NCBI GenBank assembly: GCA_017610385.1
Contig: JAFCCC010000007.1
Span: forward strand, 1 to 33,751
Reading direction: 5' to 3'
Origin: Candidatus Nanohalarchaeota archaeon
GTDB taxonomy: Archaea; Nanohalarchaeota; Nanosalinia; Nanosalinales; JAFCCC01
Length of the DNA: 33,751 nt
The position numbers and the translations under genes are program-made. Of the stretch, positions 12,417 to 33,263 are shown piece by piece. The notes below the pieces were generated by a model, which saw nothing but the letters and a program-made list of their open reading frames with translations, was not told where the DNA came from and searched no databases. The number at the start of each line of letters is the position of its first letter. Positions within the stretch are counted from its first letter, which is position 1.

Positions 12417-13433
12417 ATGTATGATAATTCTATTATTCAAAATGCCGAAGTTCTAAGAGAAAATTTTCTCCCAGAAACGTTATTTCATAGACAAACACAA
12501 ATTAAATCAATTGAACGAAATTTAAGCCCAATTTTAAAAGATCAAGAAGGGAATAATGTGATTATTTTTGGTCCACCAGGAGTTGGAAAAACCAGTAGTT
12601 CTAAATACGTGACTCGAGAACTTGCAAGAAATACAACCAAATTATTTAGAGCCTATGTTAACTGCTGGGTACATTATTCTTCGTTCAAAGCAGTGTATAA
12701 AATTCTAGAGCAAACTTCAAGTATATTAACGATTTCCAGGAAAGGTACAGGAACAGAAGAATTATTAGAAAAATTATCAACAATTTTAAAGAATAAAAAA
12801 GGAGTTATTATTTTAGATGAAGTAGATCAACTAGAAGATGATCGTTTATTATATGATTTATTAGAAATACAAAATTTATCATTGATTTTAATTGCAAACA
12901 AAGACACTTTTCTATATGATTCTGATCCGAGAATTCAAAGCAGATTATTGGGTTGTGATAGAATAAAATATACAAATTATTCTATACAGGAACTTGTATC
13001 TATTCTAAAAGATCGGGCAAAATTTGGGTTAATGCCTGGGACAATTTCAAATGAAATCTTATTAGAAATTGCTAAAAATTCTGGGGGGGATGCTAGAATT
13101 TCTATTTCTATATTGAGAATTGCAGCGCAGGAAGCAGAAGAAAACAATCAAGACAAGATTATAATAAATAATATTAAGAACTCTGTACAAACCGCCACTA
13201 TTGAAAATAAAAGAAAAAGCATTTCTCAATTAAACAAACATCAAAGACTTCTTTATCAAATTATTGAAAAGAATAATAAGATTGGTTCTAAAGAATTATA
13301 TGAAAAATATTATAGTCAAACTAAAGAAACAGTTGTGGATAGAACACTAAGAAAATATCTATCAAAATTAGAACATTATAATTTAATTTCTTGTGAGGGA
13401 AACGGGCGCTGGAGAAAGTACAATTTAAAATAA
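12417..13433 (+). CDS. cdc6: Orc1/Cdc6-type replication initiator
   Basis: AAA+ initiator ATPase that binds origin repeats and recruits MCM. Walker A is GPPGVGKT (about residues 51-58), Walker B is IILDEVDQL (about 132-138), sensor 1 is LILIANK, and sensor 2 is GGDARISISILRIAA. A C-terminal winged helix (about 265-338) recognises DNA. At 338 residues it is a compact version (370-420 is common). Start ATG 12417 gives a short N-terminus before the first AAA+ helix. The copy of CTATCGGAAC on each side and the divergent upstream gene are consistent with an origin nearby. This is the only initiator gene in the window. Confidence 0.95.
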   Translation: MYDNSIIQNAEVLRENFLPETLFHRQTQIKSIERNLSPILKDQEGNNVIIFGPPGVGKTSSSKYVTRELARNTTKLFRAYVNCWVHYSSFKAVYKILEQTSSILTISRKGTGTEELLEKLSTILKNKKGVIILDEVDQLEDDRLLYDLLEIQNLSLILIANKDTFLYDSDPRIQSRLLGCDRIKYTNYSIQELVSILKDRAKFGLMPGTISNEILLEIAKNSGGDARISISILRIAAQEAEENNQDKIIINNIKNSVQTATIENKRKSISQLNKHQRLLYQIIEKNNKIGSKELYEKYYSQTKETVVDRTLRKYLSKLEHYNLISCEGNGRWRKYNLK

Positions 13434-13946: not shown

Positions 13947-14609
13947 ATGAATAGGGAAGGCTATTTTATTGGATTTTTTCCGCCAGGAGACATACAAAAA
14001 ATACATAGACGGTGGGTAGAGAGTAATCAGACTCTTCTTATTAGTCAGGGATGGGAACCTTACGAAGATACGATTGTAGAGTGGATGCCAAAGTCTATAA
14101 TTCCAAAAATGGGGCGTTCAAAAGATTTAAAGAAAATAACAACGCATGCAACAGTAATTTATGTTGGAGGAATAGATGAAGAAATGGGGGACTTGTCTAG
14201 AGGATTAAGAAATTTATCAGGTCATTGGCGTTGTTCTGATAAAAGACCTTTACACTTTGAAACAGACGGCATAACTTATCTTCCTGGAGGACAAAACCCA
14301 GCATATCTTGCTCTGGTTCTGCAAGAAATATATGAGAGGGATGGTGAATCTTATTTGGCAGAAATTAGAGCAGATATAGATTCATTAAGAAAAAGTGTAT
14401 GTGTGGATACAAAAAAAGCTATTTCAAGGTATTATGAGCCGCATTTAACTCTTGCACGTGCTGGAGAATTATTAAACGCTAAAAAAGATGCTCCCATATT
14501 TCAATTACCGTTTTCTCAATCATTTGAAATTAATTGGCTTTACCTTGTAAGAAGCACAACAACTCATTCAAAACATAAATATACGGTTTTGGAGGCTTTC
14601 GCAATTTGA
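13947..14609 (+). CDS. 2H phosphoesterase-superfamily protein, copy A
   Basis: Two HxT motifs define the fold: THATVIY (H67, T69) and PHLTLAR (H166, T168), spaced as in LigT/ThpR-type 2H phosphoesterases. Those enzymes cleave 2',3'-cyclic phosphates, 2'-5' linkages or cyclic nucleotide derivatives in RNA and nucleotide metabolism. At 220 residues it is slightly longer than minimal LigT (about 180) and diverges strongly between the motifs, so the substrate is open. A GTGATG sequence upstream acts as ribosome site. The next gene is a second 2H protein 9 bases later, sharing little sequence beyond the motifs. Confidence 0.78.
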   Translation: MNREGYFIGFFPPGDIQKIHRRWVESNQTLLISQGWEPYEDTIVEWMPKSIIPKMGRSKDLKKITTHATVIYVGGIDEEMGDLSRGLRNLSGHWRCSDKRPLHFETDGITYLPGGQNPAYLALVLQEIYERDGESYLAEIRADIDSLRKSVCVDTKKAISRYYEPHLTLARAGELLNAKKDAPIFQLPFSQSFEINWLYLVRSTTTHSKHKYTVLEAFAI

Positions 14610-14618
14610 GGTAATAAA

Positions 14619-15272
14619 ATGTCAGAATCTAATTACTTTGTTGCGATACTCTGTCCAGAACCAATAACCAAAGAGCAATCAGAGTTTTTAAGAACATATG
14701 ATAAAAAAATAAGAGACTGTAATTGGATTCCTGTAAAAGACCATTTTGAAGGTCGTTCTGACTCTACGCACCTAACCATCAAATATTTTGGAAGCTTAAC
14801 TCGGGCACACGCTAAATGGTACACAGAAAAAGTTAGGGATCTAATCAAAAATGATGCATTATTCAGAAATAGAATTGGAAGATTATATTTAGGAACTACA
14901 GATATAGGATATCTAGAAGATGATAAGAAACCTACCGCAATGGTTTGGAAAGTGATTGAAGAAGAATATGAAGGTAGAGCTAAAACATTGAGGGAACTTA
15001 TTGACAAAGCTTTTGATGAACTTATTACAGAATCTCAAGAGATCTCAACAGAGGATTTTCCAAAAATAGAAGTCCCAGAACACGTATTTGATTTGGATTT
15101 GCACCTAAGTTTAGGTAGATCTCAAAAAGACAAAACACCTAAAAAAGTTCTGGGTTTAACCGCTCCTGAAGGTGGAATTTGGACTACAGACTCTTTTCAT
15201 TTAGTTGAAAGTAATAGAAAAGAAGACGGTTCTGTAATTTATAGAATTTTTGATACTATTTCTTTAATTTAA
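14619..15272 (+). CDS. 2H phosphoesterase-superfamily protein, copy B
   Basis: It carries the two catalytic signatures STHLTIKYFG (H51, T53) and DLHLSLGR (H162, S164) of 2H phosphoesterases. The first motif matches RNA 2',3'-cyclic phosphodiesterase/2'-5' ligase proteins most closely. About 35 extra residues (roughly 95-150, acidic) separate the halves compared with minimal LigT, giving 217 residues. A GAGGT ribosome site overlaps the stop of copy A, so the pair is translationally coupled. The third gene of the run is a tRNA-guanine transglycosylase, which makes an RNA-processing role plausible. Confidence 0.82.
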   Translation: MSESNYFVAILCPEPITKEQSEFLRTYDKKIRDCNWIPVKDHFEGRSDSTHLTIKYFGSLTRAHAKWYTEKVRDLIKNDALFRNRIGRLYLGTTDIGYLEDDKKPTAMVWKVIEEEYEGRAKTLRELIDKAFDELITESQEISTEDFPKIEVPEHVFDLDLHLSLGRSQKDKTPKKVLGLTAPEGGIWTTDSFHLVESNRKEDGSVIYRIFDTISLI

Positions 15273-16536: not shown

Positions 16537-17523
16537 ATGGAAAAATTCAATAAAAAATTTTCAATTGGTTCTTTACAAGATGGCCAAGAAATAGATGATA
16601 TTTTCGTAGTTAAAATAAAAAAGAAATTTGCGCCATATGGAGAAGGAAAAGGGTTTTATTTCAATTTATTATTAACAGATGCAAGTGGAAAGAGTATTGA
16701 TTACAAATATTGGGGTAGTGCGGAAGAATCCAAAGTTAAAACTCTTTTTGAATCAATTTCAAATGATTCTGTACTTCGAATTCAGGGAAAAGTTCAAAGC
16801 TACAGGAATAAATTAACGATATCAACAAATGAACCAAAAATATGTCAAGTTCTACTTCCAGAACAATTTGATTCAGAGTTATTTATCAAGTCTCCAAAAT
16901 GGAATATAGATAATATGGTTAAAGAACTGTATTCACAAATTAATTCTGTAACTAATTCAGAATTAAAATCGCTCCTAGAGTCTGTTTTTCTTGATGAAAA
17001 AATACTCAACAAATTTAAAATACATCCAGGTGCGATACAAATACACCACAACTGGAAAGGAGGCTTATTACAGCACACGTTAGAGGTTGTAAAAATATGT
17101 GAACTTATGTATACCTTCAATAAAACGTTAGATTTGGATTTAATGATTACTGGCTCTTTACTTCATGATTTAGGAAAATTAGAAGAATTAGAAGTTACAT
17201 CCAGAATAAAGGGAACAAAAGCAGGACAATTACACGGGCATATAATCCAAGGAATTATGTTCTTAACAGAGAGATTAAATAAGTCTAAAATGGACTTAGA
17301 TTTGAAAAATAAACTAATACATATTTTAATTAGTCATCACGGAAAAGAATTTTATGGTTCTCCAAAAACACCAATGATTCCTGAAGCATTTGTAATTTAT
17401 CATGCGGATGAGTTAAGTGCAAAAGTAGCGGAGATTACAGAATTCATTGAAGATTCAAAAAATGATACAGATGATGATTTTATGTATAGTGCAAGAAATA
17501 AACGTAATATATTACTCAGATAA
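16537..17523 (+). CDS. YhaM-like OB-fold/HD-domain 3'-5' exoribonuclease
   Basis: N-terminal OB fold (about 1-105; TLFESISNDSVLRIQGKVQSY) followed by an HD phosphohydrolase domain (about 150-310). Metal ligands are in QIHHNWKGGLLQHTLEV, SLLHDLGKLEE, HGHIIQG and LISHHG, with the last Asp in VIYHADELSAK. This is the YhaM/Cbf1 architecture, a manganese-dependent 3'-5' exonuclease on single-stranded RNA or DNA. At 328 residues it has family length. It starts 30 bases after tgt and is probably co-transcribed. The last 12 bases overlap the 3' end of the convergent subtilase gene. Confidence 0.92.
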   Translation: MEKFNKKFSIGSLQDGQEIDDIFVVKIKKKFAPYGEGKGFYFNLLLTDASGKSIDYKYWGSAEESKVKTLFESISNDSVLRIQGKVQSYRNKLTISTNEPKICQVLLPEQFDSELFIKSPKWNIDNMVKELYSQINSVTNSELKSLLESVFLDEKILNKFKIHPGAIQIHHNWKGGLLQHTLEVVKICELMYTFNKTLDLDLMITGSLLHDLGKLEELEVTSRIKGTKAGQLHGHIIQGIMFLTERLNKSKMDLDLKNKLIHILISHHGKEFYGSPKTPMIPEAFVIYHADELSAKVAEITEFIEDSKNDTDDDFMYSARNKRNILLR

Positions 17524-19410: not shown

Positions 19411-19598
19411 AAGATTCACCTTATATTTTTCCCAAGCCCCACATAAAATTAGAATAAATCATATATTAAAATTTGCTAATTTTTTAAAGAATAATATAAA
19501 GAATATTAGATAGGCATATAAAAATGACTGTGAAATAGAAAGTAAGCTTATATACTCAATAGATAAGATTTACTACTAGTAAGTTACCGAGGAATATA

Positions 19599-21029
19599 AT
19601 GCAACTTAAATTTCATGATCCACATTTTGAAAAAGATAAAGAAGAGTGGGAAAAACTAATTCTAACAGGAAATATAGAACTTGCAAAGAAAATATATTGG
19701 GAAAAATTGTATCCTACTGTAGAAAAAAGATTTTTGAAAAGAATGAAAAACCGCAAAGTTTCAGAATATGATGTATTGATTATTCCTATGGGAATGGCAG
19801 CACAATATTATATTCTACAAATTAAAGCGCTAAATCCTAAAAAAGTGTATTTTCTGTCGACTCCTGAAACAGAAAAAGAATATTTAGGAAAGATCATTGA
19901 AATGACTAACTTGCAACCGTCTCAATATCACAAAGAATTATTTGATTACGCCACGATTAATGCACCCGAGGCGTATGATGCGATTAAAAAAATAGTCAAA
20001 ACTAACAAAGGCAAAAAAATTGCAGTGGATATCACTCGTGGAAAAAGAAGCATGATTGCTGGAGCGTCCTTGGTAGGAGAATTCTTCGATTGTGATATTA
20101 TTTATGTATACAAAGGTTGGCTGCCAAATCTCAGATTAGGGGACCCCGGAACAGAAGATTTAGTTATTTTGGATAGTTCATTGTATTTATTTGGAGATTT
20201 GGAAAATAATTACGCCATACAATTATTCAATAACTATGAATATACGTCTGCAAGTGCCTTATTTGCAGTTTTAAAGAATAGGTCTCGGGATCCACGAATT
20301 TTTGAGATTAAAAACCTAATTAGTGATGCTTATGCGTATTGGGATTCCTTTAATTACAAAGCAGCAGGTAGAAAAATAGAAGAATCACTTAAAAAAATTA
20401 ATCAATATAAACTGCAAATTTATCCAGATCCCAAATTAAACTTAAATTTAAAGGTTCTGAAGGTTTTAGGTGACCTGCAAGGCACTAAAAAAACTTTCGA
20501 AGTGATAAAAAATGTACACTTAGTATCTCATTTAATCAGTGATTTGTACTGCAATGCCAGAAGAAGGGAAAAACAAGGGCGATTTGAAGATGCTGTATCT
20601 CGATACTATAGAATTATTGAATTAATCGCTCAAAATAGGCTTGCTTTAAGAGGAATTAGTACTGGAAATCCAGATTTTACAAAGATAGCGCCATATTTAA
20701 AGGAATTTAAAAAAACTGCTGAACAAGTTTATGTACAGGTTAAGTCTTTTCCAAGTAAAATTCCATTAATGGACGCTCAAGTCCTTTTGTATGTAATGAA
20801 AGACGATTTGTGGGAGGCGTCTACTCTTTCTTCTCTAAAAAAATTATATGAAACTATACTTCTAAGAGACACGTCTTTAATAGCTCACGGAATTAGAAGA
20901 ATAGATCGAAAAACATTTCTTAAGTTCGAAGATGTAACTAAAAAATTTATTTATACATTCTTTGAATTAAATAATTTTAAATTTGGAAATTTTTTGCAAG
21001 AACATAGACACATTTCCTTAGATGATTAG
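19599..21029 (+). CDS. CARF-domain protein with HEPN-like C-terminus (Cas02710/Csm6-like)
   Basis: The N-terminal Rossmann-like domain (about 55-195) has the CARF ligand signature VDITRGKRSM (144-152), after a beta strand DVLIIPMGM and before DCDIIYVYKG. CARF domains bind cyclic oligoadenylates. The middle is helical. The C-terminal part (about 320-460) resembles the Cas02710/Csm6-type end: RFEDAVSRYYRIIELIAQ, then LLRDTSLIAHGIRR, where R423-X6-H430 fits the HEPN RNase pattern. This suggests a ligand-activated RNase. No CRISPR array, cas10 or other cas gene is visible here. It has its own TATA (about 19545-19555) and ribosome site GAGG. The CARF call is firmer than the HEPN call. Confidence 0.75.
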   Translation: MQLKFHDPHFEKDKEEWEKLILTGNIELAKKIYWEKLYPTVEKRFLKRMKNRKVSEYDVLIIPMGMAAQYYILQIKALNPKKVYFLSTPETEKEYLGKIIEMTNLQPSQYHKELFDYATINAPEAYDAIKKIVKTNKGKKIAVDITRGKRSMIAGASLVGEFFDCDIIYVYKGWLPNLRLGDPGTEDLVILDSSLYLFGDLENNYAIQLFNNYEYTSASALFAVLKNRSRDPRIFEIKNLISDAYAYWDSFNYKAAGRKIEESLKKINQYKLQIYPDPKLNLNLKVLKVLGDLQGTKKTFEVIKNVHLVSHLISDLYCNARRREKQGRFEDAVSRYYRIIELIAQNRLALRGISTGNPDFTKIAPYLKEFKKTAEQVYVQVKSFPSKIPLMDAQVLLYVMKDDLWEASTLSSLKKLYETILLRDTSLIAHGIRRIDRKTFLKFEDVTKKFIYTFFELNNFKFGNFLQEHRHISLDD

Positions 21030-21095
21030 AAAAGAATTGGGGGTACTCTTAAATACATTAACTTTAATCGTTATTATGAAGTAGTAAAGATTAAA

Positions 21096-23192
21096 ATGTC
21101 GTACTTGCCTGAGGAAACCACACATTTGGGAATGGTTTATCGATTAGCGCAGATAATTGATTATCAGAGTAGGGGCAATGCAAGAACATATCTTAAAGGA
21201 AGCGAAGCGATTCGTGTTATGACAGATGGCTCTTCTGGAGATTTCAGTCATAGGGGCGATCCTACAACAGTAGATCCAGAATTAATTTCTGATATAGACA
21301 TTACAGTATTAGACGCGCCGACAGATAAGCGAGACATACTACCTGGTGCAGAATTCTTAGCTTCATGTATGTATGAACAACACATTAGACAAATGAATCA
21401 GGAAAGAGTTTATCCGCAAAAATTTGAACGTAGATCCGATCTTCCTTTAATGTCTGCTTTGGTTTATGCTCCAGGGTCTGGCTGTGAAAGAGTTTGGGAG
21501 TTTGAACTTTTAAAGGGGGGTTCAAAAGCATTAAAAAGAGCAATGCATGGGAAAGGATTTTTAAGATCTACAACAATGCTTAATTTGGTTAATGGAGAAA
21601 TAGTGGGCTTACCAGGATACAAAGAAGATTTAAAGAAAGGTATACTCAGAGCAATTCATCTAGAACTGCTTGATGAAATACCACACTATAACGTATGGGA
21701 ACTAAGAAATGAAATTAAAAGTGGCAATGGAGATTTAATTTTTGAGGGATTTCCTAGACCCGATCATCCTTATTTAGATCCAATGTCAGTAAAAGCATTT
21801 TATGAACATTTATTGGGTGTTGCAAAATTACCACATGTAGCACAATACATTTTATCAAGAGAGGTATTAACCTTGGATCCTAAAACCAATAAATTATTTG
21901 AAGAAATTCAGAAAAGACTGGGAACGCCATATAGTCCAGAATATCTTCTTGATGACGTGTCTCTAAGAGCTTCTTGCGGAGCACGTATTAAGAAATCACA
22001 TATGACCGCACGACATACGGTAAGAGCATATTGTCAACTTACAAATTCCGTATTTTCCAAAGATTTTGGACCAGTATTTGACTTAGCAGGGGTATATGAA
22101 AATTTAGGCGATGAAAATGCTGGTTTGGATTTAAAAACTAAGTCGATTATTGCCTTTGAACACTATATGAATCAGGATCCTCAAGAAAGACATCTTGCAC
22201 TAACATATGCTATCCCTCTATTTTATGCATATAGGTATGCAAAAAAAACAAGTGAAGAGCAAATTAGTAGGCGTCTTAGAGAGTTAGAGGAGGAATATGG
22301 TGATGAAGAATTAAAAAATTTGGTAGATTCGTCAGAACTGGATCATGTTGGAAAACAATTAGAAAATTTAAAGGAGGAGTTAGAAAGGGATGTTCATAGA
22401 AAACGTGTGGAACTCATAAAAGGCTGTGCGAGAAAATATATAAACAGAAAAGATCATGAAAAAGAAGTATCTCTTCTTTTATCTCTTGCGGAAAAGTATT
22501 ATGACAAGTTTATGGATGAAACCCCCATAAATTCTTTAGATATTGCAAATGTTGCTGCAGATATGGCAACGAGTTTAGAAAAAACAAGATTGGCACCAGT
22601 TCATCTTTTAGATCTTTATGATGCAATATGGACCAGCGAAGGAAGCTATGCAAATGAAGTTCTGTTAAACGGCAGATCTATTGAACAAATATTACATGAT
22701 ACTGAGCCACTCATAGGACTTCCAAGTATCTTAAATCCTTTTTTTGTTCCTCCTAAAGGCGTTTCTCCAAAACAAAGAGCAATAGAAACTGCAACAAAGA
22801 ATAATTGGCTAAATGCACTTGAGACCACTCAAAAACCAGTAGTAACGGCAGGAACGGTATTGGGAGAACTCAATGAATATGCAAAACGTGTCCTGATACC
22901 ACAAATAAGAGAAAATGGAGATCATTTAAAGAGGAATACCTTTACGAGACCGGTTCGAGACGTCTTCTTTAGAGAATTATTACGAAGACAGACTTCTGGA
23001 GAAATTACCACCGGACCCGACGCATTACAACTGTTGGTCAATATGACTAAAAAGTTAAATGTTGCTCAAATGCTATTACCGGTTTTCAGGGGAGATAAAA
23101 TAGATTTAAAACCATTAGAAAATACATTGAGCAAAGTAGAACCAATAGATGCCACATTTCGAAATGGCGCAGACAAACATACAATTGAATAA
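21096..23192 (+). CDS. Large nucleotidyltransferase-like protein of unknown function
   Basis: Family not identified with certainty. The N-terminal region has Pol-beta-type NTase features: YLKGSEAIR (34-36 = GS-like turn) and SDIDITVLD (D66, D68), then WEFELL (about 134-139), which could give the third carboxylate. RSTTMLNLVNGEIVGLPGYKEDLKKGILRAI (157-187, quoted in parts elsewhere) recalls the end of class II CCA-adding/poly(A) polymerase heads. The remaining 500 residues are helical, with a TPR-like stretch near 330-356 and a coiled coil near 383-440. It starts 67 bases after the CARF gene, with its own possible TATA (about 21047-21057). An active NTase is inference. Confidence 0.6.
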   Translation: MSYLPEETTHLGMVYRLAQIIDYQSRGNARTYLKGSEAIRVMTDGSSGDFSHRGDPTTVDPELISDIDITVLDAPTDKRDILPGAEFLASCMYEQHIRQMNQERVYPQKFERRSDLPLMSALVYAPGSGCERVWEFELLKGGSKALKRAMHGKGFLRSTTMLNLVNGEIVGLPGYKEDLKKGILRAIHLELLDEIPHYNVWELRNEIKSGNGDLIFEGFPRPDHPYLDPMSVKAFYEHLLGVAKLPHVAQYILSREVLTLDPKTNKLFEEIQKRLGTPYSPEYLLDDVSLRASCGARIKKSHMTARHTVRAYCQLTNSVFSKDFGPVFDLAGVYENLGDENAGLDLKTKSIIAFEHYMNQDPQERHLALTYAIPLFYAYRYAKKTSEEQISRRLRELEEEYGDEELKNLVDSSELDHVGKQLENLKEELERDVHRKRVELIKGCARKYINRKDHEKEVSLLLSLAEKYYDKFMDETPINSLDIANVAADMATSLEKTRLAPVHLLDLYDAIWTSEGSYANEVLLNGRSIEQILHDTEPLIGLPSILNPFFVPPKGVSPKQRAIETATKNNWLNALETTQKPVVTAGTVLGELNEYAKRVLIPQIRENGDHLKRNTFTRPVRDVFFRELLRRQTSGEITTGPDALQLLVNMTKKLNVAQMLLPVFRGDKIDLKPLENTLSKVEPIDATFRNGADKHTIE

Positions 23193-23519: not shown

Positions 23520-23757
23520 GGGGGTATGGGGTAATGGCATCCTTACCGGCTCCAGAGAATAGATAGCTCCGTTAACACGATAATGTGTCGCTCTATGCAC
23601 GAGCACATATAATCTTGTTCAGAGTGAAGTGAGTTGTTTACAACTCGCTGTGTTGATTAAGCTGACTGCAGCTTATTTGGAGCGATGAGTCCGTAGGACA
23701 ATGACTTAATACTTATGAAGACACCGGTCGATCCCGGTTCAAATCCGGGTGTCCCCA
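23520..23757 (+). tRNA. tRNA-Trp (CCA) with a 167-nt intron
   Basis: Exon 1 is 23520-23555 and exon 2 is 23723-23757. Acceptor GGGGGTA pairs with TGTCCCC (two wobbles), anticodon stem ACCGG/CCGGT, loop CTCCAGA with anticodon CCA at 23552-23554, T arm CCCGG/CCGGG with loop TTCAAAT, discriminator A; CCA is not encoded. The intron is at the canonical 37/38 site. BHB fits with bulges AG|A and AC|A, though the 4-bp helix CTCC/GAAG has one mismatch. The intron is highly structured, with hairpins at 23628-23649 (9 bp), 23658-23675 (7 bp) and 23689-23699. It also contains TTTGGAGC (23676-23683), complementary to the anticodon loop. Archaeal Trp introns often host a box C/D guide for C34. Confidence 0.92.
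23564..23649 (+). repeat. Structured module inside the tRNA-Trp intron, shared with 6997-7081 and 30191-30212
   Basis: TAGCTCCGTTAACACG (23564-23579) is identical to 6997-7012, and 48 bases follow in both before an AG(T/C)GAGTT hairpin arm. The hairpin at 23628-23649 (arms AGTGAGTTG and CAACTCGCT) recurs at 30191-30212 as AGTGAGTTA and TAACTCGCT, a compensatory G-C to A-U change. TATAATCTTGTTC (23608-23620) nearly matches the promoter motif TATAAACTTGTTC of tRNA-Lys and tRNA-Ile. Confidence 0.65.
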
Positions 23758-24534: not shown

Positions 24535-24679
24535 TGCCGAGGGCGAGACTCGGACTCGCGACCTCCACGTATCTCAACATAAATCATGGAAAACGTGAGT
24601 TTTCTCATTACTCACAAAGATACGTTTATGAGCTTCGCCTAAGATTATGTGGCGCTCTAACCAACTGAGCTACCTCGGC
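24535..24679 (-). tRNA. tRNA-Met (CAT), elongator-like, with two introns
   Basis: Read on the reverse strand: acceptor GCCGAGG/CCTCGGC, D arm GCTC/GAGC, T arm GCGAG/CTCGC, variable AGGTC, discriminator A. The anticodon stem is complete only if two introns are removed. A 15-nt intron (ATAATCTTAGGCGAA) lies between positions 30 and 31, and a 56-nt intron lies at 37/38. Then the stem is CCAC+G / CGTGG and the loop CTCATAA. Intron 1 BHB: bulges AC|A and AA|G, helix CGCC/GGCG, outer helix TAA/TTA. Intron 2 BHB: bulges TA|A and AT|A, helix CTCA/TGAG, outer helix ACGTA/TATGT. Mature length is 74. Elongator Met fits best; tRNA-Ile2 (CAT) is not excluded. Confidence 0.93.
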
Positions 24680-30158: not shown

Positions 30159-30286
30159 TATAAACTTGTTCTCATTACCTCTTTAGTTATAGTGAGTTAA
30201 TTATAACTCGCTGTGTTTGTGAATTTTGTTCACAAGTTAGAAAAACTCGTAAGAGTTTTACGTGATGATCAAACTTTCAGAAGTTT
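30159..30286 (+). ncRNA. tRNA-Ile promoter and 5' leader built of four hairpins
   Basis: TATAAACTTGTTC (30159-30171) predicts transcription from about 30187. The roughly 100-base leader then holds four near-perfect hairpins. HP1 is AGTGAGTTA/TAACTCGCT (30191-30212). HP2 is TTGTGAA/TTCACAA (30217-30235). HP3 is AAAACTC/GAGTTTT with a GTAA tetraloop (30242-30259). HP4 is AAACTT/AAGTTT (30271-30286), ending at the first base of tRNA-Ile. A GTGATGA box-C-like sequence lies at 30262-30268. HP1 is shared with the tRNA-Trp intron. Confidence 0.65.
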
Positions 30287-30420
30287 GGACCCGTAGCTCA
30301 GTCGGTTAGACATCCTAAATCAAATCGATTGCTGGGATGGCCCAAAGCGCTACATTCGTTTAAAAGACGCAGGCGAAGCTGATAACGTAGAGGTCGTGAG
30401 TTCAAGTCTCACCGGGTCCA
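30287..30420 (+). tRNA. tRNA-Ile (GAT) with two non-canonical introns
   Basis: Acceptor GGACCCG/CGGGTCC, T arm GTGAG/CTCAC, variable AGGTC, discriminator A. Removing a 36-nt intron at 22/23 restores the D stem GCTC/GAGC. Removing a 24-nt intron at 30/31 restores anticodon stem CTAC+G / CGTAG with the intact loop CTGATAA (anticodon GAT). Intron 1 has outer helix CATCC/GGATG and bulges AG|A and AA|A, but its inner helix GGTT/GCCC has one mismatch. Intron 2 has helix CGCT/GGCG with bulges AC|A and AA|G. It ends GGCGAA exactly as in tRNA-Met. Lengths add up to a 74-nt mature tRNA. There is no intron at the canonical 37/38 site. Confidence 0.93.
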
Positions 30421-31583: not shown

Positions 31584-31991
31584 ATGCTTGCTGTACGAAA
31601 AGATAAGAATAAGAAAAAGGGGGTTAGAATCGAGTTCATTTCTAAGGATAAATTAAAAGAAAAAGACTTTGATGAGAAAGTAAACTTAATTTTAGAAAAA
31701 GTGAAAGATAATTCTATTTTAGTTTTAGAAGAAGCATTAAGCCCAGAAGAAAAAAGAGAATTAATTACAAGATCTGTTGAAAGTATTACAGAGGAATTTC
31801 CAGGTATTGAGTTTTCTGGGCTGGAGAATCACTCTGCTTTTTTTGATCGTCTTTTAAATAATCTATCCAAGAAGTTTTTAGGAAAAGAAAGAAAAAGAGG
31901 GTTAACCATTGTTGGAAATTCTAATGTAATGGAAAAGATCGCAGAAGAACGTGACTCTGTTTCCTTATTAGCAAAATTTGACAGATTTTAG
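31584..31991 (+). CDS. arvB: DUF2073 protein (ArvB/OapB-like)
   Basis: The 135-residue alpha/beta protein has the DUF2073 pattern RIEFISKDKLKEKDFDEKVNLILEKVKDNSILVLEEALSPEEKRELI (in parts), then EEFPGIEF, and a C-terminal GLTIVGNSNVMEKIAEERDSVSLLAKF. No catalytic motif is known. Its constant location between the GTPase and the Zn-ribbon gene indicates one complex, and the homologous Haloferax operon is linked to vesicle formation. It starts 2 bases after the GTPase stop. Confidence 0.88.
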   Translation: MLAVRKDKNKKKGVRIEFISKDKLKEKDFDEKVNLILEKVKDNSILVLEEALSPEEKRELITRSVESITEEFPGIEFSGLENHSAFFDRLLNNLSKKFLGKERKRGLTIVGNSNVMEKIAEERDSVSLLAKFDRF

Positions 31992-32000
31992 AGGTTAAAA

Positions 32001-32516
32001 ATGCCACACATTTGTATGAACTGCGGAAAAAGGTACGAAGATGACTCTGAAGAGCTTTTAAAAGGATGTGAGTGTGGATCAACATTATTCTTATTTGAAA
32101 AAGAAACAGAAGGGGTTGAAGAAGACGAACCAAAAGAAACAAAGGGGAAAAATTCAAAAGAAACTAAAAAATCAAAGAAAGCATCTAATAAAAAATATAG
32201 AGATTCTTTAGTAGAAGAAATCGACTCATTTTTGAAGAATTTAAAGGACAAATTCAAAAAAAAGAGTGAAATTAAGTTTGATTTGGAATCTATTAAGGTA
32301 ATTAAAGAAGGGGTTTATGAAATTAACATTGGAAGACTTTTGGAAAAAATGCCATTGATTATAGAAATCAAAGAAGGTAGCTATAATATTCACCTACCCT
32401 CTGCATTTAAACCAGAAGAATTTGAGACCTTTGATATTAAAGAATTAGAAGATCTACGCGCATTAATTGTATCTAAAGGCAAAAAGGGTGCTAAAAAAAA
32501 GAAGAAGACCAAATAA
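32001..32516 (+). CDS. arvC: Zn-ribbon protein (ArvC/OapC-like, DUF2072)
   Basis: The N-terminal zinc ribbon HICMNCGKRYEDDSEELLKGCECGSTLF is followed by a very charged Lys/Glu linker (about 33-75). A C-terminal domain has FDLESIKVIKEGVYEINIGRLLEKMPLII and YNIHLPSAF, ending in a poly-Lys tail. This is the DUF2072/OapC layout. It completes the three-gene operon. The GAGGT ribosome site lies 6 bases before ATG 32001. Confidence 0.9.
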   Translation: MPHICMNCGKRYEDDSEELLKGCECGSTLFLFEKETEGVEEDEPKETKGKNSKETKKSKKASNKKYRDSLVEEIDSFLKNLKDKFKKKSEIKFDLESIKVIKEGVYEINIGRLLEKMPLIIEIKEGSYNIHLPSAFKPEEFETFDIKELEDLRALIVSKGKKGAKKKKKTK

Positions 32517-33113: not shown

Positions 33114-33263
33114 GCGTTGTTAGTCTAGGGGCATGACACAACCCTGCCAACTTATTGCACTATAACTTTATGCGGAAGCGTAATTTTCATCAACGTTTTT
33201 GCACGTTTACTTGGGCAAAAAGGTTGAGCGGTTGAGGCGCGGGTTCAATTCCCGCACAGCGCA
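33114..33263 (+). tRNA. tRNA-Gly (GCC) with a 79-nt intron
   Basis: Acceptor GCGTTGT/ACAGCGC (one wobble), D arm GTCT/TGAC around AGGGGCA, anticodon stem CAACC/GGTTG, loop CTGCCA+C with anticodon GCC (33146-33148), variable AGGC, T arm GCGGG/CCCGC, discriminator A. The intron (33150-33228) is at 37/38. The BHB inner helix CTGC/GTTG has one mismatch, with bulges CA|A and AG|C. The intron contains TGCGGAAGCGTA and a TTTTTGC-N12-GCAAAAA hairpin, the tRNA-Lys intron module in reverse orientation. The mature tRNA is 71 nt. Confidence 0.92.

Follow-up and report, generated by a model that had tools for sequence, protein, structure and literature searches.

Which ligand, if any, does a ribonuclease of a CRISPR-associated family answer to in an archaeal draft genome where no CRISPR genes are found? 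The question is raised by a 33,751-nt stretch of DNA (hereafter the window), which represents the entire contig C17 of an assembly of 788,277 bases in 18 contigs, 93.5% complete. Two consecutive ORFs of 476 and 698 amino acids lie there on the same strand, separated by a gap of 66 bp. The first is firmly assigned, on profile matches and conserved motifs, as a predicted Csm6-type CARF-HEPN ribonuclease, and the second had been described preliminarily as carrying Pol-beta-type nucleotidyltransferase (NTase) motifs. The features of the locus are as follows.

19547..19556 (about), + strand: TATA-like box 5′ of the CARF-HEPN gene (putative; by eye, AT-rich background)
19599..21029, + strand: Csm6-type CARF-6H-HEPN ribonuclease gene, 476 aa (TIGR02710 / PADLOC CARF1-HEPN; profiles, PDB match and alignment)
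20028..20054, + strand: CARF ligand-pocket motif D144-I-T-R-G-K-R-S-M152 (alignment; family pattern DhTxGxKxM)
20865..20888, + strand: HEPN catalytic motif R423-D-T-S-L-I-A-H430 (Rx6H; alignment)
21048..21057 (about), + strand: TATA-like box in the 66-bp gap, 5′ of the 698-aa gene (putative; by eye, AT-rich background)
21096..23192, + strand: gene of a 698-aa orphan protein with a putative Pol-beta-like NTase N-terminus, the rest probably mostly helical (long ORF, local GC3)
21195..21302, + strand: putative NTase motif K34-G35-S36 ... S65-D66-I67-D68-I69 (loose pattern, 0.4% of shuffles)

The CARF-HEPN gene and its product

The 476-aa ORF was of full length, and its CARF-6H-HEPN architecture was identified by Pfam, PDB, NCBIfam and PADLOC searches and by alignment. 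Significant matches were obtained with PADLOC CARF1-HEPN (PDLC01801, E-value 2.4e-91), NCBIfam TIGR02710 "CRISPR-associated CARF protein" (5e-38; 131 bits, cut-off 83.9), the Csm6 HEPN family Cas_Cas02710 of Pfam (PF09670, 3.1e-25, residues 311-450; score 89.1 against a cut-off of 27), and Csm6_6H (PF22205, 1.5e-10, curated cut-off passed). The N-terminus was matched weakly by the CARF profiles of Pfam. Residues 55-432 matched the structure of Thermus thermophilus Csm6 (TtCsm6; PDB 5fsh, 2e-16).

In a multiple sequence alignment of the window protein and 15 homologues, the segment D144-ITRGKRS-M152 was aligned with DLTSGTKAM of TtCsm6 and with its equivalents in 14 further homologues. Likewise, R423-x6-H430 was aligned with RNSALLVH of TtCsm6, the arginine and histidine being invariant in 16/16 sequences. 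The gene, with its full length and both motifs intact, had no signs of decay. The profile and structure matches (PF09670, TIGR02710, PDLC01801, TtCsm6) and the aligned motifs thus confirmed the preliminary description of a CARF-HEPN effector of the Csm6/Cas02710 type.

CARF domains bind oligoadenylate, and HEPN domains cut single-stranded RNA. The ligand class, the RNase activity and a role in defence are accordingly predicted for the window protein from knowledge of its family. In a tree of 16 CARF-HEPN proteins, the window protein was only loosely placed with that of G099 (support 82/79, long branches), and the nearest archaeal homologue sampled had 25% identity to it.

CRISPR genes in the draft genome and orphan genes in other archaea

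No CRISPR-like repeat array was found in the window by repeat search, and no cas gene was present on either side of the CARF-HEPN gene, over 19.6 kb in the 5′ and 12.7 kb in the 3′ direction, in agreement with what had been noted from the sequence alone. Across the 788-kb, 93.5%-complete assembly, no match was returned by the profiles of the Cas10 palm (PF22335), RAMP proteins (PF03787) or Cas1 (PF01867), each of which finds matches in archaeal control genomes. This genome-wide check for cas10 favours the earlier reading of a locus independent of CRISPR. Linkage to type III CRISPR-Cas is usual for Csm6 and TIGR02710 proteins, although membership of the family does not need it, and in the draft no Cas10, RAMP or Cas1 profile match accompanies the gene.

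The window holds archaeal genes (Orc1/Cdc6-type ATPase, OapB, OapC and ribosomal protein S8e), and the 28 genomes of the same phylum are small, 0.5-1.2 Mb, which together indicate a reduced archaeon. The CARF-HEPN gene was absent from the 28 same-phylum genomes other than its own, which would fit either a lateral gain of the gene or its repeated loss. Further genes identified on the contig were the following.

807-1637: MBL hydrolase (confirmed)
12417-13433: Orc1/Cdc6-type AAA+ gene
13947-15272: two tandem, diverged 2H phosphoesterases (TIGR02258, weak, 7.4e-7 and 1.9e-6)
16537-17523: OB-HD protein (confirmed)
31584-31991 and 32001-32516: origin-associated protein genes OapB and OapC

A replication origin may be located near the Orc1/Cdc6, OapB and OapC genes. 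Both 2H phosphoesterases carry two H-x-T/S motifs, and their weak TIGR02258 matches are mutually consistent. The 2H phosphoesterases and the MBL and HD hydrolases had been put forward as possible signal-degrading enzymes; the genes themselves were confirmed, but no positional case was found for the 2H link, as TGT, OB-HD and opposite-strand subtilase genes intervene before the CARF-HEPN gene.

Intron-bearing tRNAs seem dense on this contig. A tRNA-Trp(CCA) at 23520-23757 has a 167-nt anticodon-loop intron and was recognised by ARAGORN only when introns were allowed. A 27-nt stretch within this intron (23628-23654) recurs, 89% identical, at 30191-30217, about 70-100 nt upstream of an apparent intron-containing tRNA near 30290-30420. 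Two more tRNAs of about 150 nt, presumably intron-containing, were identified with Rfam at 24535-24679 (- strand) and 33114-33263 (+ strand).

The profile PDLC01801 gave matches in 57 of 394 archaeal genomes, many of which were weak, CARF-only matches, and 23 other genomes had stronger CARF-HEPN matches. In 12 of these 23 carriers Cas10 was 2.7-6.4 kb from the CARF-HEPN gene, in six it was on a separate contig, and in five (G035, G119, G183, G207 and G270) it was absent. RAMPs were also lacking in the five Cas10-less genomes and in G138, but present in the positive control G040. Orphan CARF-HEPN genes are thus met with repeatedly.

Among these five, the copy in G183 appears split, and the pocket motif of G270 is degenerate (DCTFSTDIM); the G270 genome, 99% complete and assembled as one contig of 2.87 Mb, has CARF-HEPN and neither a Cas10 nor a RAMP match. 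G119 may not be truly cas-less, because a 289-aa ORF adjoining its CARF-HEPN gene resembles Cas6 in sequence by eye. On the 16-protein tree, the Cas10-less members were scattered and formed no single group. Stretches with a CARF-HEPN gene and neither Cas10 nor RAMP match were L038 (G035), L039 (G207) and L040 (G270); in L038 (1-10000), the genes after CARF-HEPN resemble, by eye, an AbiEi-type regulator and a Fic protein. As every CARF family was found in the 2014 survey of Makarova et al. to include genes unlinked to CRISPR-Cas (PMC4012209), and as such genes recur in the archaeal genomes, an orphan Csm6 is uncommon but known.

The 698-aa neighbour

The 698-aa ORF is a real gene, on the basis of its length and of a GC3 (0.234) like that of its neighbours (0.17-0.26), in DNA of about 32% GC. 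Its product had no family match in Pfam, queried whole and in pieces, or in NCBIfam, PADLOC and PHROGs, and no match among PDB structures. Relatives were found neither in phages or plasmids (tblastn), nor in 28 same-phylum genomes, 394 archaeal genomes and 19 genomes of the phylum of G035, nor in viral contigs (four scans) or genome contigs, the contig scans being made with exact 8-residue patterns that detect close relatives only. The sole matches were coiled-coil-like, around residues 380-475. PHROG 22039 (8e-4) was rejected as a relative, its match being confined to this same helical stretch; the matches in G330 and G229 fell on ORFs of DHH-type phosphoesterases (by eye), where the NTase motifs have no counterpart, and were attributed to chance.

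The NTase motifs described preliminarily do exist in part. The glycine-serine turn and the DID of S65-D-I-D-I69 are present, followed by W134-E135-F136-E137, and the order of helix, GS, DxD strand, helix, strands and acidic strand fits a Pol-beta palm by eye. The loose GS...SDIDI pattern arises in 0.4% of composition-preserving shuffles and was found in 1 of 146 other proteins, that one apparently being an NTase by its canonical motif. The canonical spacing hG[GS]-x7-13-Dh[DE]h, where x7-13 is the range tested as canonical, was however absent, with about 29 residues from GS to the first D in the 698-aa protein. Support for an NTase from fold or profile was found in none of Pfam, NCBIfam, PADLOC and PDB, and AlphaFold (AF2) models made with no alignment depth had pLDDT of 36 and 32, too low for a fold to be read from them. 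The odds that the protein has an NTase fold are roughly even.

Each of the two genes is preceded by its own TATA-like box. An operon is therefore not indicated and two promoters are plausible, in line with the caution against a single operon in the preliminary description. The co-occurrence of the two genes in relatives, proposed earlier as a check, was not observed, the 698-aa gene being present in 0 of the 23 other genomes with stronger CARF-HEPN matches among the 394 archaeal genomes. This counts against a functional pair, though as a weak negative: no relative of the 698-aa protein was detected, and unsampled relatives would fit equally. The link between the two genes is one of adjacency only, and the 698-aa gene is either an independent chance neighbour or a candidate partner of the CARF-HEPN gene.

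Explanations of the locus and comparison with known systems

The explanation that we consider probable is an intact, orphan Csm6-type RNase in a genome draft with no Cas10, RAMP or Cas1 match, which answers to a ligand not made by Cas10 or is idle. The gene would most likely have been gained laterally, or would have stayed on when a type III module was lost. Its CARF domain would bind a small ligand of the oligoadenylate type, upon which the C-terminal HEPN domain would cut single-stranded RNA, leading to dormancy or abortive defence. With the ligand-making Cas10 and the remaining CRISPR machinery missing from the recovered genome, the effector would be left as an orphan, and may now answer to a ligand of other origin or idle under residual selection. 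That the protein is of full length and its motifs are intact speaks for some active source of the ligand and against a remnant in decay.

The unrecovered part of the 93.5%-complete, 18-contig draft could contain a small type III module or an array. If a type III system exists in this 6.5%, or is missing through loss in this one strain, the protein would be an ordinary ancillary Csm6, as might be expected from the Cas10 genes of most of its archaeal relatives, six of which have Cas10 on a different contig. Cas10, RAMP and Cas1 are nevertheless all absent, and where Cas10 shares the contig elsewhere it lies within 6.4 kb, whereas the window gene is flanked by 19.6 and 12.7 kb containing no cas gene; a missed type III system is thus regarded as improbable. 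Similarly doubtful is a CRISPR-independent pair, in which the 698-aa protein, as a Pol-beta-type NTase, would sense infection and make a cyclic or linear oligonucleotide switching on the CARF-HEPN RNase, with a logic like that of CBASS. The genes are adjacent on one strand, the GS...SDIDI and W-E-F-E segments follow an order compatible with such an NTase, the loose GS...SDIDI pattern is uncommon among shuffles, the assembly lacks Cas10, and an intact CARF pocket requires some ligand. Against these points stand the motif spacing beyond the range tested as canonical, the lack of NTase profile, PDB or fold support and of a CD-NTase match in PADLOC, the separate TATA-like boxes, and the missing 698-aa gene in all other CARF-HEPN carriers. 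Of the signal-maker and CARF-RNase pair proposed preliminarily, the CARF-HEPN protein and, by profile search of the 93.5%-complete draft, the absence of recognisable cas genes have stood; the cyclase partner has one weakly spaced motif and adjacency in its favour. That a highly diverged NTase activates the adjacent Csm6-type RNase, amounting to a CBASS-like defence with a captured CRISPR effector in a cas-less archaeon, is accordingly an unlikely outcome.

A toxin-antitoxin module is very improbable. The HEPN RNase would in this case be the toxin, and the putative NTase neighbour its antitoxin, acting by nucleotidylation in the manner of MntA on HepT. The HEPN domain of HepT uses a tyrosine two residues past the histidine (R-x4-6-H-x-Y), whereas the segment RDTSLIAHGI of the window protein has no tyrosine at this position, and its HEPN domain is of the Csm6 type with no HepT match in Pfam. 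A HEPN gene adjoining a possible NTase gene is indeed the layout of HEPN/MNT modules (PMC7641770), but the partner here is 698 aa long, has non-canonical motif spacing and no match to an MNT profile, and each gene has a TATA-like box of its own.

If the preferred explanation of an orphan Csm6 holds and the enzyme is active, its ligand would come from a non-Cas10 maker in this cell or from outside, e.g. from a host archaeon if this archaeon is an episymbiont. Archaea that are cas-less and carry CARF-HEPN would then be a practical hunting ground for unknown oligoadenylate synthases. The question of the ligand source is not confined to the window, given that five further archaeal genomes have CARF-HEPN but match neither the Cas10 nor the RAMP profile.

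Among known systems, CBASS (CD-NTase with CARF-related SAVED effectors) is alike only in the proposed logic of an NTase-made signal and a ligand-gated nuclease; the window pair has no SAVED domain and no CD-NTase match (Pfam, NCBIfam, PADLOC), and its signal synthesis is hypothetical. Panoptes, which uses a miniature Cas10-type enzyme (mCpol), is a CRISPR-independent system built of CRISPR-related signalling parts (PMC12657218, PMC12657230), as the window pair would be, whereas the assembly studied here had no match to PF22335, a Cas10-palm rather than a dedicated mCpol profile. HEPN/MNT toxin-antitoxin modules share the HEPN RNase adjoining a possible NTase, but neither partner in the window matches the HepT or MNT families. 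The CRISPR-unlinked CARF genes of the 2014 survey (PMC4012209) are likewise CARF-effector genes with no linkage to CRISPR-Cas, the difference being that the present one is of the Csm6 type and is found in a reduced archaeal genome where all cas profiles tested were absent. The gene of TtCsm6 (TTHB152; PDB 5fsh, 8jbb) directly follows cas10-csm2-5, whereas the genome draft of the window gene yielded no cas gene; TtCsm6, the TIGR02710 family and the window protein nevertheless have the same CARF-6H-HEPN architecture, with pocket and catalytic motifs in common and residues 55-432 aligned.
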